Assembly (NCBI RefSeq): GCF_000770795.1
Contig: NZ_JRKJ01000002.1
Coordinates: forward strand, 434,001-498,000
Length of the DNA stretch: 64,000 bases
DNA from: Lysobacter dokdonensis DS-58
GTDB taxonomy: Bacteria; Pseudomonadota; Gammaproteobacteria; Xanthomonadales; Xanthomonadaceae
Direction: 5' to 3'
The notes beneath the pieces were generated by a model that saw only the letters and a program-made list of their open reading frames with translations, had not been told where the DNA came from and made no database searches. Both the position numbers and the translations under genes were made by a program. Position 1 is the stretch's first letter, and each line of letters starts with the position of its first letter. Positions 8,798 to 43,415 of this stretch are shown piece by piece.

Positions 8798-8824
8798 TTG
8801 GTGCCCGGGAGAGGACTCGAACCT
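8798..8824 (-). repeat. att site: direct repeat of tRNA-Leu 3' end
   Basis: The 27 bases here are identical to 43330-43356, which is the CCA end, discriminator, 3' acceptor strand and T arm of the intact tRNA-Leu. Beyond this the two sequences diverge after three more matching bases. This is the expected attR/attL-type duplication made by integrase-mediated insertion, and marks the joint between elements 1 and 2. Confidence 0.85.
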
Positions 8825-11471: not shown

Positions 11472-11486
11472 GGTGCTTTCCTCAAA

Positions 11487-11897: not shown

Positions 11898-11914
11898 GTA
11901 TTTCTCCGAAAGAC

Positions 11915-12742: not shown

Positions 12743-12751
12743 TTGGGCTCC

Positions 12752-14772
<2,021 letters not shown>

Positions 14773-14839
14773 TCATTCGCTCGCCACCCATATTGATAAA
14801 GTGGTAAAACCCGATTGGCCCTATGCTCAGGATTCATCA

Positions 14840-22055: not shown

Positions 22056-22562
22056 TCATGGCGTCCTGCTTTCGTCGTCAAGCAACGCCTTCATCCGCCG
22101 GATTTCGTTGCGCTGTGATGCTAGGATTTCTGCGCACAACGCTTGCACTTCGGCGCCATCGCGACCCTTTCGTTCCTCGCACATGAGTATCGCGCCGGCA
22201 TGGTGCGGGATCATCGAGCGCAGGAACTGACGCTCGGTCACGGCGGTTTGCTGACGGATCAAGACCCAAAAAACGATCATCGCCGCGATTCCGCCCACGA
22301 TCAGCAGCGCGTTGCGCTTCTTGTCCGGATACATGCCGCCCATGACCAACAATTCGATGACGAGCATCGGAGACGCCATCAGCCCCGCCATCCAGGCTTG
22401 GTTGACGCTCCCGTAGACGTTCGCGAATCGGTCCACCATGGCGTACATCAGGGCGTACATCGCCAGGAATGAAAGTCCCATCATCACCAGCAAGCGGAAG
22501 TAGTGCCCGCTGTGCCCGTGCTGGTTCGCTTGCTTTCCGTGCGCCGCGTGTTCGTGCTCCAT
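22056..22562 (-). CDS. DUF305 membrane protein
   Basis: This 168-aa protein has a His-rich N-terminus (EHEHAAHGKQANQHGHSGH), three membrane segments (about 23-42, 57-77, 86-103) and a C-terminal DUF305 (ferritin-like) region with FLRSMIPHHAGAILMCEE and ILASQRNEIRRMKALL. The HH and E residues are the usual metal-ligand positions of DUF305. Such proteins are repeatedly found in copper and silver resistance loci, but their function is not established. It is the last gene of the minus-strand copper operon, 17 bp after the ATPase. Confidence 0.82.
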   Translation of the reverse strand: MEHEHAAHGKQANQHGHSGHYFRLLVMMGLSFLAMYALMYAMVDRFANVYGSVNQAWMAGLMASPMLVIELLVMGGMYPDKKRNALLIVGGIAAMIVFWVLIRQQTAVTERQFLRSMIPHHAGAILMCEERKGRDGAEVQALCAEILASQRNEIRRMKALLDDESRTP

Positions 22563-22579: not shown

Positions 22580-24796
22580 CTACCGCGAATCAGTTTTCTT
22601 GCCCCCCGCCGCCCCAAGCCGCAACGCATTGGCGACGACGGAAACCGAACTCAGGCTCATCGCGAGCGCCGCGATCATCGGGCTGAGCAAGACGTGGAAG
22701 ACCGGGTACAACACGCCGGCAGCGATCGGGACGCCGAGCGCGTTGTAGGCGAAGGCAAACCCGAGGTTCTGCTTCATGTTCCGCACCGTGGCGTCGGACA
22801 GCTCGCGCGCCCGTAGGATGCCGCGCAAGTCGCCCTTGACCAGCGTGACCTGCGCGCTCGACATCGCGACATCGGTGCCTGTGCCCATCGCGACGCCGAC
22901 GTCGGCGGCGGCCAGGGCCGGTGCATCATTGATTCCATCACCTGCCATCGCCACCTGCTTACCCTGCGCTTGCAGCGCGCGCACAAGCTCGGCCTTGTCG
23001 GCCGGACTGACTTCCCCATGGAACTCGTCGATGCCCAAGTGCGAGGCGACTGCGCGCGCGGTCGTCTCGCCGTCGCCGGTCGCCATGACTACATGCAGCC
23101 CGCTGCGCCGCAAGGCCTCCAACGTCGGCTGTGCCGACTCCTTGATCGGGTCGGCGACGGAGAGCACGCCCGCGACGCGCCCATCGAGGGCAAGGAACAT
23201 CACGCTGGAACCGTCCTTGCGAAATGCTTCCGCCCTGTCCCGCCATTGCGTGATGTCCGCGCCGACCTGTTCCATCAATCGCGTATTGCCGAGCGCCGCT
23301 TCGCGCCCGTCGACGCCACCGCGCACGCCGAACCCCGTCACGGAGTCGAACCCTTCGACGGTGGCAAGCGTCATTTCGCGACGTCGCGCTTCGGCAACGA
23401 TCGCCGCCGCCAACGGATGCTCGCTGCCTTGGTCCAGGCTGGCGGCGAGGCGCAACACCTCGGCGGGCGCGACGCCGTCGGCGCCCACCGCATCGCGATA
23501 CGCGGGATGCCCTTCGGTCAGCGTGCCCGTCTTGTCGACGATCAGTGTGTCGATCTGGCGGAAGCGCTCGATCGCCTCCGCGTCCTTGAACAACACGCCG
23601 CCCGTGGCGCCGCGCCCGGTGGCGACCATGATGGACATCGGCGTGGCCAGGCCCAAGGCGCAGGGGCACGCGATGATCAGGACCGAGATCGCGTTGAGCA
23701 CCGCGTAGGTCCATGCAGGTTCCGGTCCGAAGACGCCCCACGCCAGTAAGGTGATCGCAGCGGCGGCCAGGACGGCGAGCACGAACCAGTAAGCCACGCG
23801 GTCGGCCATGCGCTGCATCGGCGCACGCGACCGCTGCGCCTGCGCGACGAGCTGCACAATCTGCGACAGCACGGTGTCGGCGCCCACCTTTTCCGCGCGC
23901 ATGATGAGCGAGCCGGTGCCGTTGATCGTCGCCCCGATGAGGCGCGCGCCCGCGTCCTTGCGCACCGGGATGGGCTCGCCGGTGATCATCGATTCGTCGA
24001 CGCTGCCCTGCCCCTCCAACACCGTTCCGTCCACCGGCACCTTCTCACCCGGGCGCACGCGCAAGCGATCACCTACGTGGACGTTTTCAAGCGGAACATC
24101 CTCTTCGACGCCGTCGTCTCCGATTCGGCGCGCGGTCTTCGGCGCGAGCCCCAGCAACGCCTTGATCGCCGCGGATGTCTTCGACCTTGCGCGCAACTCC
24201 AACATCTGTCCCAACAGCGTGAGGGTGACGATGACCGTGGCCGCCTCGAAATACACGCCCACGCGCCCGTGCGCATGAAACGAAGCCGGGAACAGCCCTG
24301 GCGCCACGGTGGCGACGACGCTGTAACCGAACGCCGCCGCCACGCCGATGCCGATCAGCGTCCACATGTTAGGGCTGCGATTGCGAATGGATTGCGCGCA
24401 ACGCACGAAGAACGGCCACCCCGCCCACGCCACGACCGGCACGCTGAGCGCAAACTCCAACCAAGCCCGTGCCTGCGGCGACAACGCAGCCCAGCGATGG
24501 CCCCACATCGCGAGCACGAGGACTACGATCGTCAACGGCAACGTCCACCAGAACCGTCGGGAGAAATCGCGCAACTCATGATTCTCGTCGTCGTCCAGCG
24601 ACGGGAGTTCCGGCTCCAACGTCATGCCGCAAATGGGACAAGTGCCCGGTCCCACCTGGCGAATTTGTGGGTGCATCGGACAGGTGTAGATCGTTTCCGC
24701 ATTCTTCGCGGATCGCATCGAAACCGCAGTGTCCCCATGGCCGTGGTGATGCGCGTGGGCATGCGCGTGCGGATCGTCATGATTGGCGTTGTTCAT
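22580..24796 (-). CDS. Copper/silver P1B-type ATPase with heavy-metal-binding N-terminus
   Basis: The 738-aa protein has a His-rich start, then a YHS-like heavy-metal-binding domain (CPMHP...GTCPICGM, about residues 40-63) in place of an HMA domain, then eight predicted helices. The CPC ion motif ([14 protein letters not shown]), phosphorylation site DKTGTLTEG, and [16 protein letters not shown] hinge motif are intact. This subgroup (CopF/SilP-like) exports Cu+ or Ag+ from the cytosol. It follows the cytochrome gene by 9 bp within the copA-copB operon. A second, HMA-type ATPase is encoded at 36598-38808. Confidence 0.93.
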
Positions 24797-24805
24797 GCTG
24801 GATGC

Positions 24806-25486
24806 TCAGTGATGATGACCAGGCTTACCGTGCTCGGGCACCGTCGACGCGGATGCCGGCATCTGATGCGCGTGTTGCCCGCCGTGCGCCTCTTCCATCT
24901 CGTGCTCGTCGCTCTCGCGCTCGTCGTTGTCGAGATGGTGGTGCGCCGCTTCGCCGCCACCGTGCGAGTGCCCTTCGCTGTGCGCCACCATGTCGCGGTA
25001 GCCGCCAGCGTCCAGCTTCGGCAGTTGTTGCAGGAACGCGACCATGTTCCAGATGGACTCGTCGTTCATGCTCTTGCCCCAAGCCGGCATGCCGGACGCC
25101 TTGATGCCGTGCTTGATTGCCCAGAACGCTTCGCGTGGCGGCACGCTCTCGCGCGTGAGGTTCGGCGGCGCCGGGTAAAGGCCCTTGCTCAACTCGGTTT
25201 CCGCGATGCCCGGCGCGAGGTGGCACCCGGTGCACATGGCATCGTAGTTGCCGGCACCTTGGCGGATGCGGGCGGGATCGTTCATGGTCGGCAGCATGAG
25301 CTGTTGCGCGCGAACGGCAATGGACCGTTCACGCAGCGTCTGCAACAGCGACAGCACCGGGCGCGTGTGCGCGTTGTCGGCGCCGATGTCATACGCACCG
25401 GAGTAGACGAAGCCGGCGAAGGCGAGCAGGCCGACGCCGGACAGGACCGCGAGTGTGAAAAGCGTTGATCGCTTTACGAAAGGCAT
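24806..25486 (-). CDS. Cytochrome c with His-rich C-terminal tail
   Basis: This 226-aa protein has an N-terminal anchor or signal (residues about 8-30) and one class-I heme site (CTGCH near residue 85; SGMPAWG supplies the axial Met). The last 56 residues hold 13 His plus many Asp and Glu, and are absent in ordinary cytochromes c. The placement between copB and the copper ATPase suggests the tail binds periplasmic copper, with the heme possibly passing electrons from Cu+ oxidation (inference). The start is 15 bp after the copB stop. Confidence 0.85.
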   Translation of the reverse strand: MPFVKRSTLFTLAVLSGVGLLAFAGFVYSGAYDIGADNAHTRPVLSLLQTLRERSIAVRAQQLMLPTMNDPARIRQGAGNYDAMCTGCHLAPGIAETELSKGLYPAPPNLTRESVPPREAFWAIKHGIKASGMPAWGKSMNDESIWNMVAFLQQLPKLDAGGYRDMVAHSEGHSHGGGEAAHHHLDNDERESDEHEMEEAHGGQHAHQMPASASTVPEHGKPGHHH

Positions 25487-25501: not shown

Positions 25502-26530
25502 TTAGAACCAAACCCTGACGCCCGCCACGATGCGGGTGTCGCTCTTGTCTTCGCCAAGCGCGCGACGGAAGTCCGCCGTGTCGCCGAACGCACGCTCATG
25601 CACGACGCCGATGTAGGGCGCGAACTTTCGGTGCACTTCGTACCGAAGCCGCAGTCCCGCCTCCATCGTCGACAGGCCGGAACCGACGCCACGTCGCTCG
25701 TCGTCCTTGCCGTTGAAGTTGGCTTCGACCAGTGGTTGCAGGATCAGCCGATTGGTCAGCAACAACTCGTACTCAGCTTCGATGCGCGCCGCCGTTCGGC
25801 CTGAGGCACCGATGTACGCCGTCGCCTCGACTTCAAACTTGTAGGGCGCGAAGCCGACGACACCGATTGCCGCCCAGTCCTGCGACGGGCCTGGTTTGAA
25901 GTCGTGCCGAACGCCACCGACGACGTCCCACCAGCGAGCGATCGGCCGGCCGTGCATGACCTCAAGATCGGCGGCCTCTGTCCGGTCATCGACGCGCTCG
26001 CCTTCCGAACGCAGCCAAAGTTTGTCGGTGTCGGTGCCAATCCACGCCTGCCCTTCCCACGCCAACCCGTTGCCATGGTCGGCATCGAAAGCTTCAAGCC
26101 GATTGAACAGGACCTTCGAGTGCACGGTGTTGTCGTGCACGGGGTGCGCGTGCTCGGGTGGACGCGCTGCTTCACGGTCCGCGTCGGTCAGCGCCGGGAT
26201 CGGCGTGCGTAGCTCGCCGGGCGCGGACATCGCGTCGCCCATCTGCATCTGCGAGTGGTCCATCGTCGAGTGGTCCATCTGCATCTGCGAATGGTCCATC
26301 GTCGAGTGGTCGACGGGCTTTTCGGCGGGCGGCTTCGGGGCAGGCTTCTGCTTCGGCTTGGTCGCTGGCTTGGGTGCTGGTTTCGCTGGCTGCGCGGCCT
26401 TCGGCGCCGGTGCCGGCTTTGCTGGCATCGGCATCTGCATCGGCATGGACGAATGATCGTGATGCTGCGCGGCCGCGCCGGTCGACAGCATCAACCCGAT
26501 CGCGAGCGTCGTGAGCTTGGACGTCCTCAT
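25502..26530 (-). CDS. copB: Copper resistance outer-membrane protein CopB
   Basis: The start is the ATG at 26530, which overlaps the copA stop (ATGA), giving 342 aa with a signal peptide (MRTSKLTTLAIGLMLSTGAAAQ). A Pro/Lys/Ala-rich linker and a Met/His zone follow; that zone contains two tandem copies of a 12-residue unit (DHSTMDHSQMQM). The rest is a beta-barrel ending in Trp-Phe, as needed for outer-membrane insertion. CopB proteins bind copper and are usual partners of CopA. The longer frame to 26833 lies inside copA and is not used. Confidence 0.93.
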   Translation of the reverse strand: MRTSKLTTLAIGLMLSTGAAAQHHDHSSMPMQMPMPAKPAPAPKAAQPAKPAPKPATKPKQKPAPKPPAEKPVDHSTMDHSQMQMDHSTMDHSQMQMGDAMSAPGELRTPIPALTDADREAARPPEHAHPVHDNTVHSKVLFNRLEAFDADHGNGLAWEGQAWIGTDTDKLWLRSEGERVDDRTEAADLEVMHGRPIARWWDVVGGVRHDFKPGPSQDWAAIGVVGFAPYKFEVEATAYIGASGRTAARIEAEYELLLTNRLILQPLVEANFNGKDDERRGVGSGLSTMEAGLRLRYEVHRKFAPYIGVVHERAFGDTADFRRALGEDKSDTRIVAGVRVWF

Positions 26531-28356
26531 TCTTCGACCCTCACTTCGCGCATCATCCCGGCTTCCATGTGGAACAGCAGGTGGCAGTGGTACGCCCAGC
26601 CACCGAGCGCGTCCGCGCGCACGCGGTAGGTGCGCCGCGTTCCCGGCGGGATGTCGAGCGTGTGCTTTCGGACGTGGAAGTTCCCCTGCTCGTCTTCCAG
26701 GTCGCTCCACATGCCATGCAGGTGGATCGGATGCGACATCATCGTGTCGTTGACGAGCACGATCCGCAGGCGCTCGCCGTAGGTCATGCGCAGGGGTTCG
26801 ACCTGCGAGAACTTCTGGCCATTGAAGCCCCACACGAAGCGTTCCATGTGGCCCGTCAGGTGCAGTTCGATTTCGCGGCCGGGATCGCGGCCATCGGGGT
26901 CCTCGAACGTGCTCTTCAACATGCCGTAGCTGAGCACCTTGCGGCCGTTGTTGCGCAGGCCGATGCCGGGATCGTCGAGCCGCGGCGTCGGCGACATCGT
27001 TTGCATGTCGACGAATGGATTGCCGGCTTCGCTTGCCGGGTGCACCGGCATCGCCGTCCCGTGCTGCATGCCCGACATGTCGTGCCCCATGGCCGAATGG
27101 TCCATGCCGGCCCCGTGCTGCATGGCGTCGGGTTGCATTCCCGCCATATCGTGTTGATGCATCGCGCCATCGCCCATGCCGGGCATGTCGTGACCCATCC
27201 CGCCATGACCCATGTCCGCCATCTTCAGGATCGCGCGCGGATCGAGCGCGGGCACGGGCGCGCGGAGGCCGTCGCGAACGGAGAGCGTGCCGCTGACGTA
27301 ACCCGTGTGGGCCATGTCCTGCGCGAAGATCGTGAAGGCGTCCTGCCCCGTCGGTTCGACGATCACGTCGTACGTCTCCGCAGGCGACATGCGGAACTCA
27401 TCGACCGTCACCGGATGCACGTACTGCCCGTCGGCGGCGACCACCGTCATCTTGAGGCCCGGGATGCGCACGTCGAAGTACGTCATCGACGAACCGTTGA
27501 TGAAGCGCAAGCGCACCTTCTCGCCGGACCGGAACAGGCCGGTCCAGTTCGCGAGCGATGTCGCGCCATTCATCAGGTAGGTGTAGGTGTTCGCGTTGAC
27601 GTCCGACAGGTCAGTCGGCGTCATGCGCATCTTGCCCCACGTCTTGCGGTCGTCGATCGTGGCGGACATGCCATCGCGCTTCGCGTCACGCGCGAAATCA
27701 CCGACAGTGCGTTTGTAGTAGTTGTCGTACCCCGGCATCTTCTTGAGGCGCGCGAACAGTGCCGACGGGTCGAGGTCGGTCCAGTCGGTGAGCATCACGA
27801 CGTGTTCGCGGTCGTATGAGAATGGTTCGGGCGCGATGGGCTCGATGACGAGCGGCCCGTAGAGCCCGGCCTGCTCCTGGAACCCCGAATGGCTGTGATA
27901 CCAGTACGTGCCGCCCTGCTTCACCGTGAAGCGATAGTGGTACGTCTCGCCGCGCCCGATGCCGTTGAAGCTGATGCCGGGCACGCCGTCCATGTTGGCG
28001 GGGAGCAGGATGCCGTGCCAATGGATCGAGGCCTCATGACCGTGGATGGACCCCGCGGGCAGTGCGTTGCTCACGCGCAAATTGACCGTCGTGCCCTCCT
28101 TCCACCGCAACAAGGGCGCGGGGATGGAGCCGTTGACGGTAATGGCCGTGCGCGTGCGGCCGGTGAAGTTGGCCGGCGACTCGCCGATGACGAGGTCGAA
28201 CTCGGTGCCACTCAACGTGGCGTTGCGCTTTACACCAGGGGAAGCGCGCAACGGGAAACCGCCGAAGCCGGCCAGCACGCCGGCTGCGGCAAGACCTTGC
28301 AAAAACTGACGACGCGCCGGATAGACAGGCGCTCCAAGAAAACGATCGGAAGACAT
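26527..28356 (-). CDS. copA: Periplasmic multicopper oxidase CopA
   Basis: The 609-aa protein carries a twin-arginine signal (ARRQFLQGLAAAG), so it is exported folded. Cupredoxin domain 1 has HWHG and YWYHSH; the last domain has HPIHLHG and AYHCHLLFHMEAGM, giving the type 1, 2 and 3 copper ligands. Between domains lies a Met/His-rich stretch (repeats such as MGHDMPGM and MDHSAMGHDM, about residues 385-440), the PcoA/CopA copper-storage region. It oxidises Cu+ and stores copper. GGAG precedes the start; the copL gene is 81 bp upstream. Confidence 0.95.
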   Translation of the reverse strand: MSSDRFLGAPVYPARRQFLQGLAAAGVLAGFGGFPLRASPGVKRNATLSGTEFDLVIGESPANFTGRTRTAITVNGSIPAPLLRWKEGTTVNLRVSNALPAGSIHGHEASIHWHGILLPANMDGVPGISFNGIGRGETYHYRFTVKQGGTYWYHSHSGFQEQAGLYGPLVIEPIAPEPFSYDREHVVMLTDWTDLDPSALFARLKKMPGYDNYYKRTVGDFARDAKRDGMSATIDDRKTWGKMRMTPTDLSDVNANTYTYLMNGATSLANWTGLFRSGEKVRLRFINGSSMTYFDVRIPGLKMTVVAADGQYVHPVTVDEFRMSPAETYDVIVEPTGQDAFTIFAQDMAHTGYVSGTLSVRDGLRAPVPALDPRAILKMADMGHGGMGHDMPGMGDGAMHQHDMAGMQPDAMQHGAGMDHSAMGHDMSGMQHGTAMPVHPASEAGNPFVDMQTMSPTPRLDDPGIGLRNNGRKVLSYGMLKSTFEDPDGRDPGREIELHLTGHMERFVWGFNGQKFSQVEPLRMTYGERLRIVLVNDTMMSHPIHLHGMWSDLEDEQGNFHVRKHTLDIPPGTRRTYRVRADALGGWAYHCHLLFHMEAGMMREVRVEE

Positions 28357-28437
28357 CCAACCACTCCAAGAAATCGGGCATGCGTACGCGATCGAACGCG
28401 CACGAGCGGAAGCGCCATGCAGGCGCTGGGGGGCCGC

Positions 28438-28833
28438 TTAGCCGATGGGAGGTCGGATCAGGTGTGGAAGCGCCGGGCTCGCGAACGAAACCCTAAGCGC
28501 GGCGCCAGGCGCGGCCGAAGGCCGCACAGGAATTGCGATCGACCCGAATGTCGGGATCGTGGGCGCGTGCGAAACGCAACTGCACAGGCAGGCGCCCGGC
28601 GGACAGCAATCGTCATGCGCGACCGGCGACGCTGGCGCGTCATGGTCGGAGGTCATGGCCGCATGCGCCATCGCCGGCATGTCGTCGCACGGCGGCGCGG
28701 CGTCATGGGCGGCGGCCGTTGCATCCATGCCGGCACCGAAGGCCATCATCGTGCTCGCATACACAGCCGACGTGCCGTTCGCCACAAGGGCGAAGCACAG
28801 CAGCAGGCGGAGCAGGATGGCCCGGAGACGCAT
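28438..28833 (-). CDS. copL: CopL-family metal-binding regulatory protein
   Basis: This 131-aa protein has an N-terminal signal or anchor (LLLCFALVANGTSAVYA), then a His/Met/Asp-rich middle (CDDMPAMAHAAMTSDHDA) and a Cys cluster (DCCPPGACLCSC). This matches CopL of Xanthomonas, required there for copper induction of copAB. It precedes copA exactly as in Xanthomonas. The gap to the upstream dehydrogenase is only 46 bp with no MerR-type operator or terminator, so copL-copA-copB may be read from the copZ promoter as well as from a local one. Confidence 0.85.
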   Translation of the reverse strand: MRLRAILLRLLLCFALVANGTSAVYASTMMAFGAGMDATAAAHDAAPPCDDMPAMAHAAMTSDHDAPASPVAHDDCCPPGACLCSCVSHAPTIPTFGSIAIPVRPSAAPGAALRVSFASPALPHLIRPPIG

Positions 28834-28879
28834 GGCGGCACTTTACCCGATCGGCTCGTGAAAGACGGATCGCGGTCGC

Positions 28880-29890
28880 CTACGGGTCGGAGATCGCGAC
28901 CACGACCTTGCCGAAAGGCTGACCGGATTCGAGCCGCGCGTAGGCGGAAGCCGCCTCCCTGAAGGGCACCACGCGATCGATGGCCGGCTTGACGCGATGT
29001 TCGTCAATGAAGGCAACCAGCGCTTCGGTCATTGCGCGAGACCCCACGACGACGCCCGTCACCGAACGTGGTCCGACCAAGGCGAAAGGATCGATCGACA
29101 ATGCGAATCCACCGCTGACGCCGCCGATCGTCACGACCGTGCCGCCCGCGCGCGTACTCGCGATCGACCGAGCGATCGTGCCGGCTCCGCCGACGTCGAG
29201 GACCCGGTGCGCACCGCCGGTCAAATCCTGCACGCGCGCATCCCAGGCCGGCTCGTTCGCGTAGTTGATTCCATGCGCGGCGCCCAGCGCCTTCGCCCTC
29301 TGTAGCTTTTCGTCCGAACTGGAAAGCACGGTGGGCCGCAGGCCGGCGGCGACGGCAAGCTGCAACGCCCATGTCGACACGCCGCCGGTCCCCTGGATCA
29401 GGACGTGATCGCCCTCGCGCAGCGATCCGATGCCGAAGAGCGCGTGCCATGCCGTAACGCCGGCGCACGCGAACGTTGAAGCCTCCGCCCAGGTCAGGCT
29501 CTCCGGGGCACGGACCAGCGCCGATTCTTTCGCGACGAATCGCTCCGCCAACACGCCATCGACATTCCCGCCAAGCGACTTCGACAGCGCCGCGTCGTCC
29601 GGGGCGCCCGCCAACCATTCCGGGAAGAAGGTCGGAACGACACGATCGCCCTTTGCAAATCGCGTGACCGCGGAACCAATCTCGACGACTTCACCAGCGC
29701 CGTCGGATGCCGGAATGCGTACGTCACCAGCACCCATCTGCCCCTTGGCAACCAGAAGATCACGGAAGTTGAGCGACACCGCGTGCATGCGGATGCGCAC
29801 TTCATCGGGAAGTAGCGGCAGGTCCTGAACGTGGTCGAGATGCAGGGACGCGACACCTTCGCCGCGGCGAATCCGATAGACGTTGTTCAT
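28880..29890 (-). CDS. Zinc-independent MDR oxidoreductase (quinone-reductase-like)
   Basis: This 336-aa medium-chain dehydrogenase has a catalytic domain opening with SLNFRDLLVAKGQ, the quinone-oxidoreductase pattern that lacks the zinc-ligand Cys and His, and a Rossmann motif IQGTGGVSTWALQLA. The NAD(P)-binding half is complete. It overlaps the PhzF gene by ATGA and ends 46 bp before copL. The tight coupling with a decarboxylase and a PhzF homologue suggests the three act on one small molecule; the substrate is not known. Confidence 0.85.
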   Translation of the reverse strand: MNNVYRIRRGEGVASLHLDHVQDLPLLPDEVRIRMHAVSLNFRDLLVAKGQMGAGDVRIPASDGAGEVVEIGSAVTRFAKGDRVVPTFFPEWLAGAPDDAALSKSLGGNVDGVLAERFVAKESALVRAPESLTWAEASTFACAGVTAWHALFGIGSLREGDHVLIQGTGGVSTWALQLAVAAGLRPTVLSSSDEKLQRAKALGAAHGINYANEPAWDARVQDLTGGAHRVLDVGGAGTIARSIASTRAGGTVVTIGGVSGGFALSIDPFALVGPRSVTGVVVGSRAMTEALVAFIDEHRVKPAIDRVVPFREAASAYARLESGQPFGKVVVAISDP

Positions 29891-30762
29891 GCCGTTTCCA
29901 GGTCGACTGCGACGCGGCGTTCGACGCGTGCGCTACCGCCCGCGAACAAGCGGCTGATCACGCCGTCGACAAGGTCGAGCCGGACGTGGATCGCGCTGGG
30001 CGACGGCACGGCCATCAGGGCTCCCTGCTCGACCGCGAGCGTCGGACCGATGCAGAATCGATCGAACAGGACGCACGCCAGCGGCCCGGCTGCCATGCCA
30101 GTCGCCGCTTCTTCATCGATGCCGTAACGGGGCGCGAACATGCGCGTCGTCGCGACGCGGCCGGCGGGCGCGCCTTCGCGCGAGTAAACGTAGTAACCCA
30201 CCAGGTCCAGCGACTCGCTGATGTAGGCGATGGCGGTCTGGTCGGGATCGACGGCCGCGAGCGCCTCGCGACTCTCCACCTCAAGCACGGCGAAGCGATT
30301 GCCGGTGTCGACGATGCGCATGTCGTGCAGGCGCGTACCTGCCAGCGAGGCCGAGATGCGTGCGCCCTCGCGTCCGCGCGGGGCGATGGGCTCGAAACGC
30401 GGTGCGCGCTGCTCCATCGATACGCGATCGCCCTCCACGATGACGGCGCGGGGGCCTTCGATGGTTTCCTTCGAGAGGTGCCCTTCGCCGATTCGACCGA
30501 GCGATTTCAGTAACGCGAACGTCGCGATCGTTGCGTGCCCGCAGTGTGCGATCTGGCGCGTGGGCGTGAAGAACTCCAACCGAACGGTCTCTGTGGCCGA
30601 CGCCGACACGAAGGCCGTTTCGGAAAGGCCTACGCGCGCGGCGATGCGCAGACGCGCGGCTGCGTCGAGTCCGTCGGCGTCGACGACGACGCCCGCGGGA
30701 TTGCCACCGCCGCCGCCTTCGGTGAACGCGTGGACGATCCAACCTTGGGGTTTCGTGCTCAT
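29887..30762 (-). CDS. PhzF-family isomerase/epimerase
   Basis: The real start is the ATG at 30762 (MSTKPQGWIVHAF), overlapping the decarboxylase stop (ATGA), giving 291 aa. Both halves of the PhzF (diaminopimelate epimerase-like) fold are visible: GLSETAFVS contains the catalytic Glu, and CGHATIATFALL the conserved GHAT. PhzF enzymes isomerise aromatic or enol compounds; most family members have no known substrate. It is placed between a PLP decarboxylase and an oxidoreductase within a copper operon. Confidence 0.88.
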   Translation of the reverse strand: MSTKPQGWIVHAFTEGGGGGNPAGVVVDADGLDAAARLRIAARVGLSETAFVSASATETVRLEFFTPTRQIAHCGHATIATFALLKSLGRIGEGHLSKETIEGPRAVIVEGDRVSMEQRAPRFEPIAPRGREGARISASLAGTRLHDMRIVDTGNRFAVLEVESREALAAVDPDQTAIAYISESLDLVGYYVYSREGAPAGRVATTRMFAPRYGIDEEAATGMAAGPLACVLFDRFCIGPTLAVEQGALMAVPSPSAIHVRLDLVDGVISRLFAGGSARVERRVAVDLETA

Positions 30763-32090
30763 GGGGCAGTTTCCGTCGTGCCGCCGATGCATTCGGCGAT
30801 GGCTTGTAGGATTTGGTCGACGTCGGCGTCGGTCGTCGACCAGTTGGAGAAGGCGGCGCGCACCGCGGCGCGTTGGTGCAGCACCGTGGGGGTCATGAAG
30901 ACGACGCCCGTGGCGTTGAGCCGCGCGAGAAACGCGTCGCGTTCGGCAGCGTCGGCACCCTTGGGCGCGAACGCTACGATGTTGAGTGAGACATCGTGCA
31001 ATACATCCATCCCCAGCGATTCGACGCCGCGGGCGAGCAGGCGTGCCTGTCGGCAGTTGTCGGCGACCCAGCGCCCGATTCCCGCGCGCCCTTGAACAGC
31101 GAGCACCATCCACGCTGGAAGCGCACGAAAACGACGCGAGTTCTCCGGCGTGTAGTGCAGCGGATCGGGGTCGTCGCCTAGATAAGCGGAGGTGGCCGCG
31201 AAGACTTCGCGCTGAAGTTCGGGCCATCGCGTATATGCGAGCGCGCTGTCGTAGGGCACGTTGAGCCACTTGTGCAAGTCCACCGTCACCGAGTCGGCGC
31301 GCTCGATGCCCGCGGTCATCGGCTTCAGCGCATCGTCGAAGGCTGCGAACAAGCCAAACGCGCCATCGACATGCAGCCAGGCGCCAGCTTCCGCGCACAC
31401 ATCGGCGAGGGCGACGAGGTCGTCGAAGTCGCCGGTATTCACCTCACCCGCGCTCGCCACGACGATTGACGGTCCCTCGTGCGCCGTGAGGGCCGCCCGC
31501 AGCGCGACGACGTCGACGGCGGTTCTACGTGGTTGTGTCGCAACGGCAACGTGCCGATGTCGGCCAATGCCGGTGATGGCCATTGCCTTGAGGATGCTGG
31601 AATGCGCGGCACCTGCGAACACGGTCGGAAGTGCGCCGTGCGTGCGCTCCGCCCAGTGGCGCGCCGTCGCCATCGACACAAGATTGGCGGCGGTGGCGCC
31701 ACTCACGAATTGCCCATGCATTGCCGGGTGCAACCCGAAGATGTCGGCATAGGCCGCGACCGTACATGATTCAACGTCGGCGGCGATCGAGCCCACCTTG
31801 TTCGAGACGTTCTGGTTCCAGGCGCTCGTCACCCAGTCCGCGGCAAGCGCCTCAGGCGTTGCACCGCCAGTGACGAACCCCAAGTACCGCGGACCCGGCG
31901 AGGCGGACAGATACGGGGCAACGTGATCACGAAGGTAGGCAAACGCCGCATTCAATCCAATCCCTTCGGGAGCAATCGGTTCGGGATGCGCTGACACCGC
32001 AACCCGACGCTGCTCAAGGCCGCCCAAATACTCGCGCGCAAGATGCCATGCGTGGTCGAGTGCAAGCTCGTGCTGTTCCGGCAATTCCAT
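30759..32090 (-). CDS. PLP-dependent group II amino-acid decarboxylase
   Basis: I use the ATG at 32090, which has AAAGG 9 bases before it; the longer TTG start is weaker. The 443-aa product has the AADC/glutamate-decarboxylase fold: FVSGATAANLVSM, AHSSILKAMAITG, the Asp-containing WLHVDGAFG, and the PLP-Lys in DLHKWLNVPYD. These enzymes decarboxylate aromatic amino acids, Glu or diaminobutyrate; the sequence alone does not fix which. It starts 36 bp after the EF-hand gene and overlaps PhzF, so it belongs to the copZ-led transcript. Confidence 0.88.
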   Translation of the reverse strand: MELPEQHELALDHAWHLAREYLGGLEQRRVAVSAHPEPIAPEGIGLNAAFAYLRDHVAPYLSASPGPRYLGFVTGGATPEALAADWVTSAWNQNVSNKVGSIAADVESCTVAAYADIFGLHPAMHGQFVSGATAANLVSMATARHWAERTHGALPTVFAGAAHSSILKAMAITGIGRHRHVAVATQPRRTAVDVVALRAALTAHEGPSIVVASAGEVNTGDFDDLVALADVCAEAGAWLHVDGAFGLFAAFDDALKPMTAGIERADSVTVDLHKWLNVPYDSALAYTRWPELQREVFAATSAYLGDDPDPLHYTPENSRRFRALPAWMVLAVQGRAGIGRWVADNCRQARLLARGVESLGMDVLHDVSLNIVAFAPKGADAAERDAFLARLNATGVVFMTPTVLHQRAAVRAAFSNWSTTDADVDQILQAIAECIGGTTETAP

Positions 32091-32126
32091 ATCTTCGTAC
32101 CTTTGCAATTCAGGTTCGCCGCTGCT

Positions 32127-32393
32127 TCACATGCGTTCCAGTTCTGCGAACTCGCGCTTGTCGAGAACCCCGTCTCGATTGGCGTCCACCATCGAGGCGT
32201 GCGCTCCCATCGGATGTTTGGCCAGTTCGGGTTTCGACAAGAGGCCGTTGCCGTCCGTGTCGTACTGCGTGAAGTCGTCGGCGCGCTGCTGCTTCACCGG
32301 CAGCGTCGCCGACGTCTGTGAAGGGTTGCCGGCGAGGCAGTCGCCGGTGGCGATGATGAGGGCGGCAAACATCACGAGTTCAGGGAGTTTCAT
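32127..32393 (-). CDS. Exported EF-hand protein
   Basis: This 88-aa protein has a signal peptide (about residues 1-21) and two EF-hand loops: DTDGNGLLSKPE and DANRDGVLDKRE, both with the standard acidic ligands for Ca2+. Small periplasmic EF-hand proteins are regularly found in copper-resistance clusters. It lies 21 bp after copZ and 36 bp before the decarboxylase. Confidence 0.85.
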   Translation of the reverse strand: MKLPELVMFAALIIATGDCLAGNPSQTSATLPVKQQRADDFTQYDTDGNGLLSKPELAKHPMGAHASMVDANRDGVLDKREFAELERM

Positions 32394-32414
32394 GGTTCTT
32401 CTCCGATTGAGGAA

Positions 32415-32648
32415 TCAAGCTCGGCAAGTCCCACAGCAGGCGGCCTTCGCCCCCTGCACGGACACCACGCGATAGCCTTCCGCTTCAATGGCCGCCGTTG
32501 CCAGCCCGGCGTCCACACCGTCGCTTATCGTCACGACGCCGCCCGCCAGGTCGACATCAACCTTGGCCTGTGGATCGATCGCGTGGATGGCTTTGGTAAT
32601 GGCGCGCTCACAATGCGCGCAGGTCATGCCTTCGACGATGTAATTCAT
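32415..32648 (-). CDS. copZ: Copper chaperone CopZ-like (HMA domain)
   Basis: This 77-aa single HMA domain has the metal site GMTCAHCERA at the N-terminus and an unusual Cys-rich end (AACCGTCRA) that may add a second site. It binds cytosolic Cu+ for delivery to the ATPases and possibly to the MerR regulator. It is first in the long minus-strand copper transcript, directly downstream of a CueR-type operator at 32685-32715. Confidence 0.9.
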   Translation of the reverse strand: MNYIVEGMTCAHCERAITKAIHAIDPQAKVDVDLAGGVVTISDGVDAGLATAAIEAEGYRVVSVQGAKAACCGTCRA

Positions 32649-32684
32649 GGGACTCTCCCGTCTGGCGAAAATGCCGATGGGCGA

Positions 32685-32715
32685 AGGGTGATCCTTGCCC
32701 CGATAGGAAGGTCAA
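32685..32715 (-). promoter_or_regulatory. MerR/CueR-type promoter of copZ operon
   Basis: On the minus strand TTGACC (32715-32710) is followed after 19 bp by CACCCT (32690-32685). The spacer contains the half-sites CCTT and AAGG separated by 11 bp. A long spacer with the dyad between -35 and -10 is the hallmark of MerR-family control. Confidence 0.7.
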
Positions 32716-32729
32716 GCGCAAGCAGCGGA

Positions 32730-32760
32730 TTGACCTTCCCCCCGTGGTAAGGCGCACGGT
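32730..32760 (+). promoter_or_regulatory. MerR/CueR-type promoter of the merR gene
   Basis: TTGACC at 32730-32735, a 19-bp spacer and CACGGT at 32755-32760. CCTT (32734-32737) and AAGG (32749-32752) lie 11 bp apart, the same geometry as the divergent copZ operator 15 bp away. Self-regulation of the 32791 MerR gene is implied. Confidence 0.65.
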
Positions 32761-32790
32761 GGCCCGCCCGTTTGCGGTCACACAGTACAG

Positions 32791-33141
32791 ATGGCTCGCC
32801 ACGACTCCCTCGACATCGGAGAGGCCGCGCGCCGCATCCGCGTTACGCCCGCCACGCTTCGCCTCTACGAGCGGCGCGGCCTGCTGCCGAAAGCGACGCG
32901 TACTGCCGCAGGCTACCGCCAGTATTCCCACGAAGACATGCGCCGCGCACGCCTCGTCCGCCGCGCGCGACACGCTGGACTGTCGATGCGCCAGATCGCC
33001 GAAGTGATCGCGAAGGCGAAGGACGAATCGACGTTGCGCGCGATGTTGCGCGCGCATGCCGAACACCTTGAATGCGAGCGTCGCCGAATCGAACGACTAC
33101 AGCGCCACCTCTGTCGCTGGCTGCGCTGCTGCCGCAAGTAG
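32791..33141 (+). CDS. MerR-family regulator, short form
   Basis: In this 116-aa protein the winged helix (SLDIGEAARRIRVTPATLRLYERRGLLPK), wing and YRQYSHEDMRRARLVRRARHAGLSMRQI segment are standard for MerR. The dimerisation helix is short and ends with LECERRRIERLQRHLCRWLRCCRK, so the metal-binding Cys are arranged unlike CueR (no C-x7-C loop). It is divergent from copZ and lies next to two paired MerR-type operators. The inducer could be copper or another thiophilic metal. Confidence 0.85.
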   Translation: MARHDSLDIGEAARRIRVTPATLRLYERRGLLPKATRTAAGYRQYSHEDMRRARLVRRARHAGLSMRQIAEVIAKAKDESTLRAMLRAHAEHLECERRRIERLQRHLCRWLRCCRK

Positions 33142-33149
33142 CAACAGTT

Positions 33150-33527
33150 TCAGCGCACTTCGGATACGCGCATCGCGACGATGCGATGGTCGCGAAGTTC
33201 GATCCGATACGACAGTTTGCGCGGGCTGCCGGGAAACTCGCCGCGCACACGCATGTGCGCGACGACGTTGCGCGCGCTCCGCGCGAGCCGGAGCGGCTCG
33301 AACGAGTGCGCCGGGTAGCGTGTTTCAAAGTCACGCTGCCATGCGACGATCGATACGATGCCCTTGAACAGGCGCTCGCGGTCCGTGACGATCGCGCCGG
33401 GTGCGAAAACGTGCGAGAACAACATCGCATCCTTGTCATGCGCTCCGAACAGCAGTCGCACTGCCACCGGCAGGTCCCGGTGGCAGTCTCGTCGATCAGA
33501 AGCTGATGCGCGCGCCGAGCCGTCCAC
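33150..33527 (-). CDS. NTF2/SnoaL-like protein
   Basis: The C-terminal 100 residues (RLLFGAHDKDAMLFSHVFAPGAIVTDRERLFKGIVSIVAW...) look like a small cone-shaped NTF2/SnoaL-like domain. The N-terminal part from 33527 overlaps the autotransporter end and a hairpin, so translation more likely starts at a GTG near 33467. It is convergent with the MerR gene and downstream of the autotransporter on the same strand. Binding or catalytic role unknown. Confidence 0.5.
   Translation of the reverse strand: MDGSARASASDRRDCHRDLPVAVRLLFGAHDKDAMLFSHVFAPGAIVTDRERLFKGIVSIVAWQRDFETRYPAHSFEPLRLARSARNVVAHMRVRGEFPGSPRKLSYRIELRDHRIVAMRVSEVR
33460..33487. repeat. 11-bp inverted repeat after the autotransporter stop
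   Basis: ACTGCCACCGG (33460-33470) and CCGGTGGCAGT (33477-33487) flank a 6-base loop, 9 bases after the autotransporter stop. No T run follows on either strand, so it is a stable 3' hairpin or attenuator, not a standard terminator. Confidence 0.6.
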
Positions 33528-36435: not shown

Positions 36436-36468
36436 GCGATGAGCCTCGTGGGCGTTTGGGGGACGCGC

Positions 36469-36499
36469 ACCCTGGGGCCTGCACCAAGTGCAAGGTCAA
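36469..36499 (-). promoter_or_regulatory. MerR-type promoter of the autotransporter
   Basis: On the minus strand TTGACC (36499-36494), 19 bp, CAGGGT (36474-36469). The spacer dyad is TGCAC-TTG-GTGCA, centred at the same distance from the -35 as in the other operators, but with different half-sites, so a different MerR protein may bind it. Confidence 0.55.
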
Positions 36500-36537
36500 C
36501 CCGACCTCGGCGTCGAAAGGCGTGAGGCTGCATGCGG

Positions 36538-36568
36538 TTGACCTTCCCATCATGGGAAGGCCCAGGCT
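36538..36568 (+). promoter_or_regulatory. CueR-type promoter of copper ATPase and cueR
   Basis: TTGACC (36538-36543), 19-bp spacer, CAGGCT (36563-36568). The dyad CCTTCCC-ATCAT-GGGAAGG is perfect and matches the classical CueR box. Transcription would start about 20 bp before the ATG at 36598. Confidence 0.8.
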
Positions 36569-36597: not shown

Positions 36598-38808
36598 ATG
36601 AACGTGGAAGTCGCTCTCCCGATCGAGTCCCTCCGCACTACCGAGTTCCGGGTGGAGGGCATGACCTGCGCGTCGTGTGTCGCGCGTATCGAGCGCGCGC
36701 TGCACAAAGTGCCGGGTGTGGCGGAAGCCGTCGTGAACCTTGCGACCGAGCGCGCATCGGTGCGCGTGTCGAAGCAGATCGCCGACGAAACCCTGCACGC
36801 TGCCGTGGCTGATGCGGGCTACACCGCCATTCCCGACTCGTTGGACGACGCGGGGGCTTCGGCGGACGCGCAGGTCACCTCCGGCATGCGAGAGGGACAA
36901 AAGGTGGTGATCGCCGCGCTGCTTTCCCTGCCCCTCGTGTTGCCCATGTTCGGCGCGCTGGTCGGCCGACACTGGATGCTTCCCGGCTGGTGGCAACTCG
37001 CGTTGGCCGCGCCGGTGCAGTTCTGGCTGGGCTGGCGCTTTTACAAATCTGCATGGGGCGCCGTTCGCGCGGGCACCGGCAACATGGACCTGCTCGTCGC
37101 GGTGGGCACGTCGGCCGGATTCGGGCTGAGCCTTTTCAATTTGCTGCGCGCACCGAATCACCACGGCGACTGGCCGTTGTACTTCGAGGCGTCGGCGGCG
37201 GTGATCACGATGATCCTGCTCGGCAAGTGGCTGGAAGGGCGTGCGAAGCGGCAGACCACCGATGCGATCCGCGCCTTGCAGGCGCTGCGACCGAACACGG
37301 CCCGCGTCGTGCGGGATGGCGTCGAGCATCAACTTGCGATCGACGAAGTCGTCACCGGCGATGTTGTGATCGTGCACCCTGGCGAACGCTTCCCGGTGGA
37401 CGGCGAGGTGGTTGACGGCCGCACCCATGCCGACGAATCGCTGGTGACCGGCGAATCGCTGCCGGTGGCCAAGGGTATCGGCGATCGCATCACCGGCGGC
37501 GCCGTCAATGGCGACGGTCGCGTAGTGGTGCGCACAACGGCGGTTGGCGCGGAAAGCATGCTGTCCCGCATCATCCGGATGGTCGAGGACGCGCAAGGAC
37601 GAAAGGCGCCCATCCAACGGATCGTCGACCGTGTCAGCGCCGTGTTCGTCCCCGTCGTCGTGGCGATCGCGTTGGCAACGCTCGCGGCTTGGGGCCTGGC
37701 GACCGGCGATTGGAGCGCGGCGATCCTGCACGCGGTTGCCGTACTCGTCATCGCCTGTCCGTGTGCCTTGGGCTTGGCGACGCCGACCGCGGTGATGGCG
37801 GGTACGGGCGTGGCGGCGCGCGCCGGCGTGCTGTTCAAGGATGCCGAGGCGCTGGAAATCGCCAGGAACGTGTCGATCATCGCCTTCGACAAGACCGGAA
37901 CACTGACCGAAGGCAAGCCGGTCCTCGCCCAGCGCGTAGCCGTCGACGGCGACGCCCGTGAGCTCCTGCGCCTCGCGGCGTCGATGCAGTCGGGGTCCGA
38001 ACACCCGCTCGCGAAGGCAGTCGTCGCCGCGTTCGACGAGGCGGTGAGTACGGCCGACGATTTGCAGGCGGTCCCGGGTCGTGGCCTGCGTGGTTCAGTT
38101 GAAGGCCGAAACTTGTTCCTCGGCAGCACGCTGTGGATGCGCGAGGAAGGTGTCGACCTGTCACCACTGGCGGAGCGCGACGCCCTACTCTCCTCGTCGG
38201 GTCACTCGGTGTCCTGGCTTGCCGAGCGAATCCACGATCGAGTTCGGCTTCTCGGCCTGCTGTCCTTCCGCGACCAACCGCGGCCCGGTGCACGCGAAGC
38301 GATCGCGCGGCTGCATGGCATGGGCCTGCGCACGATCATGATCTCGGGCGACAACCGCGGCGCCGCCGAGGCCGTCGCGCGCGCGCTGGGAATCGACGAA
38401 GTACGCGCTGAAGTCCTGCCGGGTGGCAAGGCCGACGTCGTGCGCGACCTTCAGCGCGAAGGCCGCGTTGCCATGGTCGGCGACGGCATCAACGACGCGC
38501 CCGCCCTCGCCGCCGCGGACGTCGGCATCGCGATGGGTAGCGGCACGGACGTCGCGATGCATGCAGCCGGCGTGACCCTCATGCGCTCCGAGCCCGCCCT
38601 GGTCGCAGATGCCATCGACATCTCCCGCCGCACGACCCGCAAGATTCACCAGAACCTGTTCTGGGCCTTCGGCTACAACATCCTCGGCCTTCCGCTCGCC
38701 GCGATGGGGCTCCTGGACCCCGTGATCGCCAGTGCCGCCATGGCCTTCTCGTCGGTTAGCGTCGTGTCGAATACCCTGTTGCTGCGCCGCTGGTCGCCAT
38801 CCCCGTGA
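36598..38808 (+). CDS. Copper-exporting P1B-type ATPase with HMA domain
   Basis: The start is the ATG at 36598 ([15 protein letters not shown] nine bases before), giving 736 aa. One HMA domain (residues about 18-80) carries GMTCASC; eight helices, CPC ([13 protein letters not shown]), DKTGTLTEG and [16 protein letters not shown] are all present. This is the CopA/CueA type that pumps Cu+ from the cytosol. It is followed 11 bp later by cueR under one CueR-type promoter. The two island ATPases differ in the N-terminal metal domain and likely in affinity or destination. Confidence 0.95.
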
Positions 38809-38819
38809 GGACCTCCGCC

Positions 38820-40838: not shown

Positions 40839-41096
40839 TTATGCGGCACCTCCTTCGTTACGGGCGGCGACGCGCGCGGCCATCCACGCCTCGATTTCCG
40901 CCGAGGAGAACCCCACGGCGCGGCAGCGGTCGCCCAGCTTGATCGGCGCCGGGAAATCGCCGGCAGCGATGCGGCGATGGAGTTCGGAGTTGCTCAACCC
41001 CACCCGCGCGCACACCTCGCGCTTGCGGAGGAAGTGCACGGGTTGGTCGAGCTTCTTTTCGTACGCGGCCCACACGGCCTGCTTGTTCCGCTTCAT
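40839..41096 (-). CDS. AlpA-family regulator (element 2)
   Basis: The ATG at 41096 (MKRNKQAVWAAYEKKLDQPV) gives 85 aa. The core VHFLRKREVCARVGLSNSELHRRIAAGDFPAPIKLGDRCRAVGFSSAEIEAWM is a clear AlpA/DNA-binding winged helix. It is the element 2 counterpart of 6002-6244, though the sequences are not close. Likely roles are excision or control of integrase. Confidence 0.82.
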   Translation of the reverse strand: MKRNKQAVWAAYEKKLDQPVHFLRKREVCARVGLSNSELHRRIAAGDFPAPIKLGDRCRAVGFSSAEIEAWMAARVAARNEGGAA

Positions 41097-41195
41097 CGCG
41101 GGATTCCTCGCGTTGCCCAGGACCACCCCGGGCTTCGGAGGCGACGATCGCGCGAAATCAGCGCTGGCCAATAGCAGGGAACTCTTAAGTTTTTC

Positions 41196-41950: not shown

Positions 41951-43138
41951 CTATTTGGCCGTGCCTATTCGTTCCAGGTAGTCGGCCCACCGCTGCATGG
42001 CCGTGCGGCGCGTGTCGTCGAACTTGGTGCGGTCGTAGGAGGCGTTGACCTCACCCTTCTTGGCGTGTGCGAGCTGCGCTTCGAGCAGGTCGGCGTCGAG
42101 GCCGAGGCGTTCGCGGGCAATCGTCCGCATCATTGCGCGGAAGCCATGCGTCGCGTGCTGGCCGGCGAACCCCATCTCGCGCAGCGCCTTGCTGAGCGAA
42201 TCGCGGTGGAGGTGCGGCGTGTTCTGCCGCGCCAGCGGCGGGAACACGTACGTGCCGCCTGCCGTGTAGGCCTGCATTGCGTGCAACGCCGTCAGGGCTT
42301 GGATGGGCAGCGACACAATGTGGTCGTGCTTGGTCTTCATCCGCGCGCCGGGGACGTGCCACTCGCGCAGGTCGAAGTCGATGTCCTCCCAGCGTGCGGC
42401 CGCCACGACGCCGGGGCGCATCGCGGTGTACATCGCCAGTTGCAAGGCCGCCCGCACGACGGTCGACGGGTACTCGTCGATGGCGCGCACCAGCTTGCGA
42501 ATCAGCTTGAGGTCGGTTGCCGCAGGAATATGGCCTTTCGTTCGCTTGGGCAGGGCGTGCTGCAACGAGAGCGGTCGGCCGTCGTCGCGCAGGCCTTGGC
42601 GCACCGCGTGGTCCACGATGCCGTGCAGGTACTGCCTGGCCTTGACCGCGAGCGCGGGGGCTTGGATGGCCACGTCCTGCAAGGCGGCGATGGCATCGCG
42701 CGTGGTCAGCGTGGCGATCGACTTGCGGCGCAGTTTCGGCAGCAGGTACGTGTCCAGCAGATACCGCGCCTTCCGATACGTCTCCGGTGCCCACTCCAAC
42801 TGCTTCGCTTCCAACCAGCCCTGCGCTGCGAGCTCGAAGCCCGCCATCGCCTCCCGACGCGCCGCGGTCTTGGCCTCGGCCTTGACCGCCGACGGATCGC
42901 GGCCATCGCGCAACAGTCGGCGGGCCTCATCGCGACGCTGGCGCGCCTCGGCCACCTTGACCTCCGGGTACACGCCGAACGCCAGCCGCTTTTCCTTCCC
43001 GCCGTAGCGATACTTCATGCGCCAATAGCGCGACAGATTTTTCGTCACTTCGAGATACAAGCCGTGTCCATCCGCATGCCGGCCGGGCGGCGCGGAACGG
43101 ATGAAGACATCCGAGAGCTTGTTGGTCAGGTTCGCCAC
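41951..43138 (-). CDS. Tyrosine integrase, P4 type (element 2)
   Basis: I start at the GTG at 43138 (GGAGG ten bases before), giving 395 aa; the extra N-terminus to 43360 runs across the tRNA-side terminator and is not real. Arm-binding (DGHGLYLEVTKNLSRYWRMKYRYGGKEKRLAFGVYPEV), core-binding and catalytic parts are complete: Arg in TAMRPGVVAA, HGFR, QLAHAKKG His and Tyr in ASYDRTKF. It lies 190 bp from the intact tRNA-Leu and is transcribed in the same direction, the usual P4-island design. It has only moderate similarity to the element 1 integrase. Confidence 0.93.
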   Translation of the reverse strand: MANLTNKLSDVFIRSAPPGRHADGHGLYLEVTKNLSRYWRMKYRYGGKEKRLAFGVYPEVKVAEARQRRDEARRLLRDGRDPSAVKAEAKTAARREAMAGFELAAQGWLEAKQLEWAPETYRKARYLLDTYLLPKLRRKSIATLTTRDAIAALQDVAIQAPALAVKARQYLHGIVDHAVRQGLRDDGRPLSLQHALPKRTKGHIPAATDLKLIRKLVRAIDEYPSTVVRAALQLAMYTAMRPGVVAAARWEDIDFDLREWHVPGARMKTKHDHIVSLPIQALTALHAMQAYTAGGTYVFPPLARQNTPHLHRDSLSKALREMGFAGQHATHGFRAMMRTIARERLGLDADLLEAQLAHAKKGEVNASYDRTKFDDTRRTAMQRWADYLERIGTAK

Positions 43139-43261
43139 GACGACGGAGCCTCCACCGCGGGGCGGAGGTGGGCCCAATGTGCCCCCAGCCGCCAGATGCC
43201 CCCGAATATGGCTCCATTGGAGCCGGGTTGCAAGGAGGCGTCCCGGGATGCCAGGGCAACA

Positions 43262-43288
43262 AAAAACCCGCCTACGGGGCGGGTTTTT
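43262..43288. terminator. Terminator between integrase and tRNA-Leu
   Basis: Arms AAAAACCCGCC and GGCGGGTTTTT around a TACGG loop, with T runs on either strand. It would end tRNA-Leu transcripts before the integrase. The same structure is found beside the other att copy. Confidence 0.75.
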
Positions 43289-43330
43289 GGCGACTTCCGG
43301 GGTGGTCTGGGACGTTCCGGAATCTTGTGT

Positions 43331-43415
<85 letters not shown>

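Follow-up and report, generated by a model that had tools for sequence, protein, structure and literature searches.

A four-gene enzyme cassette between copZ and copL in a putatively mobile copper operon of Lysobacter dokdonensis DS-58

Results

The 64,000-nucleotide stretch of Lysobacter dokdonensis DS-58 analyzed here (contig NZ_JRKJ01000002.1, positions 434,001 to 498,000; hereafter the window, to which all coordinates refer unless a locus is named) contains a copper resistance (cop) operon in which four genes lie between copZ and copL, all in a single tight arrangement on the minus strand. The operon begins with copZ, encoding an HMA copper chaperone (32415..32648; PF00403), which is followed by the first inserted gene, encoding a small EF-hand protein with a signal-like N-terminus by eye (32127..32393; PF13202). 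The next three genes encode a pyridoxal phosphate (PLP)-dependent group II decarboxylase-like protein of 443 aa (DEC; 30759..32090; PF00282, E 1e-30), a PhzF-family isomerase-like enzyme of 291 aa belonging to an EE[APS]ATG branch (PhzF; 29887..30762; PF02567 and TIGR00654), and a zinc-free medium-chain dehydrogenase of 336 aa (MDR; 28880..29890; PF00107 and PF08240). Downstream lie copL (28438..28833; NF033807, 91.5 bits versus a cut-off of 40) and the multicopper oxidase gene copA (26527..28356; TIGR01480, 1003 bits versus a cut-off of 479). These are followed by copB (25502..26530), which was named from its position and Met/His-rich N-terminus without a family search and is conserved 3' of copA in congeners, a cytochrome c gene (24806..25486; PF13442), a copper P-type ATPase gene with an HMBD domain (22580..24796; PF19335, TIGR01511) and, as the final co-directional gene, one for a DUF305 protein (22056..22562; PF03713). 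The CopA, CopL, CopZ-type HMA, and copper ATPase models all scored above their curated cut-offs, identifying the locus as a cop operon.

The DEC/PhzF and PhzF/MDR junctions are both ATGA overlaps, and the remaining intergenic gaps from copZ through the ATPase gene do not exceed 81 bp. A single terminator-like match was found in 28300-33000, located within DEC (31701-31685), compared with a mean of 3.1 in shuffled sequences. The G+C content of the four inserted genes (62–68%) is similar to that of their neighbors, so a foreign origin is not signaled by composition. A preliminary description of the window had named the three enzyme families and the ATGA junctions, placed the enzymes between copZ/EF-hand and copL-copA-copB, and seen no terminator between copZ and copL, all of which our searches confirmed. 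It had also called MDR zinc-free, in agreement with a sequence whose only cysteine, residue 142, leaves no zinc site. The coordinates in its heading (29887-32090) were correct for DEC and PhzF and left out MDR; the trio occupies 28880-32090, and the inserted block extends from about 28850 to 32414 or 32467.

In CueR-type promoters, TTGACC is followed by a long spacer that contains a MerR-type dyad. This layout was found upstream of copZ, where a CueR/MerR-type operator (32693..32711, minus strand; dyad CCTTGCCCCGATAGGAAGG, symmetric at 5/7 positions) overlaps TTGACC, and the CueR-type promoter of the preliminary description thus holds as a sequence feature. Further dyads precede the divergent merR gene (32734-32752) and a divergent ATPase gene (36542-36560); these three sites are among the five dyads in the window that retain all eight fixed bases (0.078 per kb). 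Sites with one mismatch also precede copZ in two congeners, G003 and G004. The gene divergent from copZ (32791..33141, plus strand; PF13411) encodes a CueR/ZntR-like MerR-family regulator, which scored 67.6 bits against the CueR equivalog cut-off of 147.4, its best score in a mixed list of MerR models. That scan left out a MerR-like open reading frame (ORF) downstream of the divergent ATPase gene (38805-39260).

Comparison with four congeners revealed that G003 and G004 carry an orthologous copA (93% and 95% identity, respectively) with copZ upstream, and both lack the cassette. The alignment of G003 skips from 28848 to 32467 of the window over approximately 70 bp, and that of G004 from 28850 to 32414 over 0.87 kb of unrelated sequence; the corresponding span of the window is 3.6 kb. 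In G001, copA (89%), copB, and the ATPase gene are present, with no copZ, copL, or cytochrome c gene matched beside them. Searches of the four congeners for DEC at E<=1e-90 and for PhzF at E<=1e-25 gave no matches; distant DEC relatives (37–39% identity) occur in G001, G002, and G004 and once more in the genome of the window itself, and an MDR relative of 51% identity lies elsewhere in G003. Because two congeners carry the orthologous operon without it, the enzyme cassette is, by this comparison, a lineage-specific insert. We therefore rejected the trio as an ancient, vertically inherited block, as the congeners lack it and its DEC is not placed as sister to the copper-linked DEC of genome G080 (below), which groups with Arenimonas (support 88/95).

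The same comparisons gave several additional observations. In G004, the copZ-copL gap (L094:6884-7795) is occupied by an additional copZ-like gene and a further small ORF, marking a variable spot in the operon. A second block missing from G003 and G004 (32740-36534) comprises the CueR-like merR and a gene whose 979-aa product matches no Pfam family at E<=0.01 and has an autotransporter-barrel-like C-terminus by eye. The genome of the window has a second copA (82% identical) with a copB elsewhere (G000:C24:250177-251928), and the sole copA of G002 resembles this copy.

The genome sets used to search for recurrence overlapped, and the counts below include the genome of the window. The contiguous trio occurred in no other genome searched, and the recurrence beside copper genes that the preliminary description had set as a test was seen for single parts and not for the block. 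A parallel came from G080, which belongs to the same family but a different genus and in which orthologs of all four inserted genes lie within 58 kb between two integrases (EF-hand 68% identity over 50 aa, MDR 68%, DEC 73%, PhzF 66%), scattered and in places and directions that differ from those in the window. This island also holds copZ, copA, copB, cytochrome c, merR, and copper ATPase genes and a resistance-nodulation-division pump gene (PF00873; CusA-like by eye). Ratios of nonsynonymous to synonymous substitution rates between the window and G080 were 0.17 for DEC, 0.23 for PhzF, 0.16 for MDR, and 0.13 for CopA (synonymous divergence 1.0–1.6, approximate), indicating purifying selection on all three enzymes that is consistent with maintenance like that of CopA. 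The EF-hand ortholog of G080 (L136, about 10850-11140) contains a Met/His stretch, MDHSTHTGHH, like copper-binding ones, which is absent from the window copy, and a plasmid search with the EF-hand protein gave no match at E<=1e-10.

MDR showed what appears to be the strongest copper link among the inserted genes. At E<=1e-70, relatives were found in 14 of 149 family genomes, and at E<=1e-95 a search of 126 order genomes matched the genome of the window alone; the next relatives are those of G080 and of eight Xanthomonas plasmids (58–60% identity). The G080 gene lies between copZ and a copper ATPase gene and is followed by a cupin-like ORF. All eight plasmid matches at E<=1e-90 came from Xanthomonas and adjoin copper ATPase/cueR genes, with cueR not annotated beside MDR on pXpT39.1; because these plasmids are interrelated, they do not represent eight independent events. 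At all seven plasmid loci checked by sequence, an HMA-like ORF lies directly 5' of MDR with TTGACG and a dyad before it. Five rows of a 20-row tree are copper-linked MDRs, from the window, G080, and three of these plasmids; they formed one clade (100/99), and every member examined lies beside copper genes. Ten weaker plasmid relatives (43–50%) were also recovered, six of which were opened: two were unannotated and none of the other four was annotated beside copper genes. Chromosomal relatives in G019, G045, and G003 adjoin LysR genes, and in X. citri the MDR gene lies beside a tautomerase gene. The MDR did not reach the cut-off of the PIG3-type quinone oxidoreductase model TIGR02824 (143 versus 296.8). 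On X. euvesicatoria plasmids (L155, L158, and L159), the annotation splits the copper-linked MDR into two overlapping pieces, and the gene may therefore be decaying there.

DEC scored 107 bits with PF00282 (cut-off 27), placing it among the group II PLP decarboxylases, and contains the motifs AAHSS (from residue 161), DLHKW (from 271), and SAYLG (from 301), which we take to hold the stacking histidine, the PLP lysine, and the loop tyrosine. As these residues are kept, decarboxylation rather than aldehyde synthesis would be expected. At E<=1e-60, DEC was found in 23 of 149 relatives; at E<=1e-90, in six of 247 family genomes and 19 of 398 order genomes; and at E<=1e-110, only in the genome of the window among 303 class genomes and in three of 233 genomes in the family of G108. 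Among the 11 other genomes with a DEC of at least 55% identity, six have TIGR01480 genes, and DEC is separated from copA by 2.4 kb in Frateuria terrea, by 6.6 kb in G446, and by 28.6 kb in G080. DEC occurs near copA more often than expected (two within 10 kb versus 0.039 expected, P ~7e-4; three of 11 within 30 kb versus 0.117 expected, P ~2e-4), with the limits set post hoc. The DEC contig of G148 is 6.5 kb long, and the DEC of G015 stands at a contig end; no copA was found in either genome. The copper link of DEC seems weaker than that of MDR.

Elsewhere, DEC and PhzF occur in varied settings: LysR with a short-chain dehydrogenase/reductase (SDR) gene and DEC (G110), SDR-PhzF-DEC (G148), LysR with SDR-PhzF (G255), LysR with glutathione S-transferase (GST)-MDR-DEC (G024, whose MDR is only 28% identical), and tautomerase-DEC (G015); DoxX is also among these detoxification-type neighbors. 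Enzymes of the types found in these LysR, GST, SDR, and tautomerase settings act on electrophiles, carbonyls, and aromatics. A separate DEC branch of approximately 45% identity (G481 and G518, in the same family as Frateuria terrea; L116 and L117) follows sufC-sufD-sufS-like genes by eye.

PhzF exceeded the subfamily cut-off of TIGR00654 (125.2 versus 76.2) and fell below that of the YddE-type equivalog PRK10281 (137 versus 386). Relatives at E<=1e-25 were found in 19 of 247 genomes, 16 of which have only the YddE-type EDPVTG motif, and at E<=1e-45 in four of 126 order genomes. Phenazine PhzF, the trans-2,3-dihydro-3-hydroxyanthranilate isomerase, has the pocket residues E45, H74, D208, and S213. 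Compared with 1t6k, the window protein keeps the glutamate and histidine and replaces the aspartate with glutamate and the serine with methionine; the glutamate in place of aspartate is shared by every one of the seven distinct branch sequences, that of the window among them. No phz genes were found in the neighborhood of PhzF, the part of the genome searched for them. A phenazine-like pathway was rejected on these two grounds. On Deinococcus aetherius plasmid pDAETH-1 (L153), a PhzF-family gene, an ornithine cyclodeaminase-family gene, a DEC relative (47%), and LysR are consecutive, with transposases nearby. The PhzF there is 29% identical over 77 aa only, which weakened the idea of a DEC-PhzF pair conserved across phyla.

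The operon lies within a putative island of approximately 34.5 kb at a tRNA-Leu gene, flanked by 27-bp direct attachment (att) repeats, a setting absent from the preliminary description. The 3' end of tRNA-Leu(CAG) (43331..43415, minus strand; ARAGORN), the integration site, falls within the repeat at 43330-43356, an exact copy of which marks the far end (8798..8824). Inside the island and adjoining the tRNA are genes for a tyrosine integrase (41951..43360, minus strand; PF13356, PF22022, and PF00589), whose true start is probably lower because the called ORF extends into the tRNA, and for an AlpA-type regulator (40839..41171, minus strand; PF05930). With a tRNA, an integrase, and direct repeats in place, the operon appears to be carried on a mobile island. 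Immediately beyond the far repeat lies a second tyrosine integrase (7394-8626), which may belong to another tRNA-Leu element joined to the first. The island also contains an oxidoreductase cluster (10439-15733; a two-ORF alcohol dehydrogenase, a cupin, an SDR, and two aldo-keto reductases, by eye) that ends with an opposite-strand ORF and again points to carbonyl chemistry.

Discussion

The operon anatomy, the CueR-type operator, and the recurrence of parts of the cassette support the link to copper that the preliminary description had proposed, and we lean towards regarding the four genes as a copper-induced accessory cassette for redox and electrophile handling, under CueR-type control in a mobile island. 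The EF-hand, DEC, PhzF, and MDR genes would have been inserted between copZ and copL of an island-borne cop operon, and copper would turn them on, presumably as part of one transcript, along with CopZ, CopA, CopB, and the ATPase. MDR may reduce electrophilic carbonyls or quinones with NAD(P)H, and these would come from catechols and other aromatics oxidized by copper and by the CopA oxidase. DEC and PhzF could be a metabolic pair converting an amino-acid-like or ring metabolite, joined here to the copper response. The LysR, GST, SDR, tautomerase, and DoxX neighbors found elsewhere point more to the handling of electrophiles or carbonyls than to biosynthesis. A detoxification role is our best-supported guess, and passenger status of DEC-PhzF is its main rival.

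Several results weigh against an accessory copper function, beginning with the lack of a contiguous trio in the other genomes searched. None of the substrate-specific equivalog cut-offs was reached by DEC (diaminobutyrate, 97 bits versus 900; aspartate, PanP, 83 versus 606; tyrosine, MfnA, 71 versus 299; tyrosine, TyrDC, 19 versus 905). Eight of the 11 other DEC genomes have no copA within 30 kb, five of them having no copA at all, and the distance limits behind the excess of DEC near copA were chosen after the data had been seen. In G080, a LysR gene faces GST-DEC-PhzF, giving the pair a regulator of its own; no CueR-type dyad was found before the GST gene, and the only dyad in the copZ-MDR interval lies at the copZ end, approximately 450 bp from MDR. 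The HMA match 5' of the plasmid MDRs was weak in the two loci tested (E 0.005, below the Pfam cut-off), and the TTGACG dyad, found by eye, differs from the scan consensus at two fixed bases and was not reported when three Xanthomonas loci were scanned.

It is possible, though we think it distinctly less probable than an accessory function, that DEC-PhzF, perhaps with the EF-hand gene and MDR, was captured as a passenger that is read through from the cop promoter, has no copper role, and is tolerated. Such a capture would suit the variable copZ-copL gap, in which G004 carries its own copZ-like gene and small ORF, and the finding that, by eye, no detoxification-type neighbor was recognized for the DECs of Frateuria, Luteimonas, two Arenimonas, G468, and G446 (six of the 11 other loci). 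It would also suit the DEC tree, on which copper-linked members do not form a clade (three changes, with 129 of 500 shuffles as low); this scatter indicates either repeated association or coincidence. What it explains poorly is that every examined MDR of the clade has copper genes beside it, that all four inserted genes recur in a single copper island of another genus, and that the ATGA coupling is intact and the three enzymes appear to be under purifying selection between the window and G080.

The preliminary description had suggested that the trio produces or alters a small molecule, for example a copper-binding or redox compound of the amine or catechol type. We consider this proposal improbable, also when it is widened to opine-type compounds and to binding or reduction of copper. 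Placed in a copper-responsive position, enzymes of the decarboxylase, PhzF, and reductase types could make up a short pathway, and the Deinococcus plasmid places a DEC relative with PhzF-family and ornithine cyclodeaminase-family genes. However, no positive evidence for the amine or catechol chemistry emerged: the cassette contains no transporter, ligase, or nonribosomal peptide synthetase gene, phz genes do not adjoin it, two residues of the PhzF pocket are replaced, and the Deinococcus PhzF is distant. The MDR clade moreover occurs on Xanthomonas plasmids, where searches for DEC at E<=1e-60 and for PhzF at E<=1e-40 gave no relatives. In known lysine, arginine, and glutamate acid-stress systems, the decarboxylase is paired with an antiporter. 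A role in amine or pH homeostasis, with DEC consuming protons and yielding an amine under copper stress while PhzF and MDR are unrelated, would fit its PF00282 membership but is very improbable for an operon without an antiporter gene.

Copper resistance is usually attributed to chaperones, efflux pumps, and oxidases. In all cases examined, the MDR clade lies beside copper genes, both on crop-pathogen plasmids and in chromosomal islands of relatives, which suggests that handling of copper-damaged small molecules may belong to the resistance trait. This branch may be an overlooked part of bacterial copper survival and supplies a short list of genes to test, while the window is a clear candidate for an enzyme pair that elsewhere stands beside its own LysR gene and has moved under CueR-type control. 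More tentatively, copper islands of the Lysobacterales could have an unrecognized enzymatic arm, in which a zinc-free MDR subfamily dedicated to copper is in some cases accompanied by DEC-PhzF. If so, this chemistry, whether it reduces copper-generated quinones or makes a protective compound, would form a third layer of copper defense beside efflux and periplasmic oxidation.

Neither the trio nor the copper-linked MDR is mentioned in the titles and abstract openings of the open-access matches listed, which does not prove their absence in print. The open-access literature likewise yielded no paper linking copper induction with the PhzF family and none joining PhzF and a pyridoxal-dependent decarboxylase in a gene cluster. 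Horizontal transfer of copLAB has been reported (PMC10312155, PMC8453159; available text), and the word "dehydrogenase" does not occur in the available main text of the latter. The gold- and copper-induced (GIG) operon of Cupriavidus and Legionella, as the available text of PMC5413113 describes it, is metal-responsive, carries odd accessory genes including DoxX, and lies on a mobile element in Legionella; it serves here as a precedent only, since no gene shared with the window operon was recognized, although no search was made.

Among known systems, the copLAB operons of Xanthomonas and Stenotrophomonas share the copL-copA-copB order, CopL (NF033807), and CopA (TIGR01480) with the window, which differs in having copZ and the four inserted genes before copL and the cytochrome c, ATPase, and DUF305 genes after copB. 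PhzF shares its fold family with YddE and phenazine PhzF and keeps the SETAF glutamate and the CGH histidine, but reads EE[APS]ATG[MT] where phenazine PhzF has EDAATGS and YddE has EDPVTGN. MDR has the same domain order as the zinc-free oxidoreductases 9vey, 7vem, and TIGR02824, and like them has no zinc cysteines. On the Xanthomonas copper plasmids pLH3.1, pT4p2, and pXAS220, an MDR of the same clade lies beside copper ATPase and cueR genes. On pLH3.1 and pXAS220, the two of these covered by the sequence check, MDR is preceded by an HMA-like ORF and by a site that looks CueR-like by eye. The plasmid MDR is located downstream of cueR, whereas that of the window lies upstream of copL.

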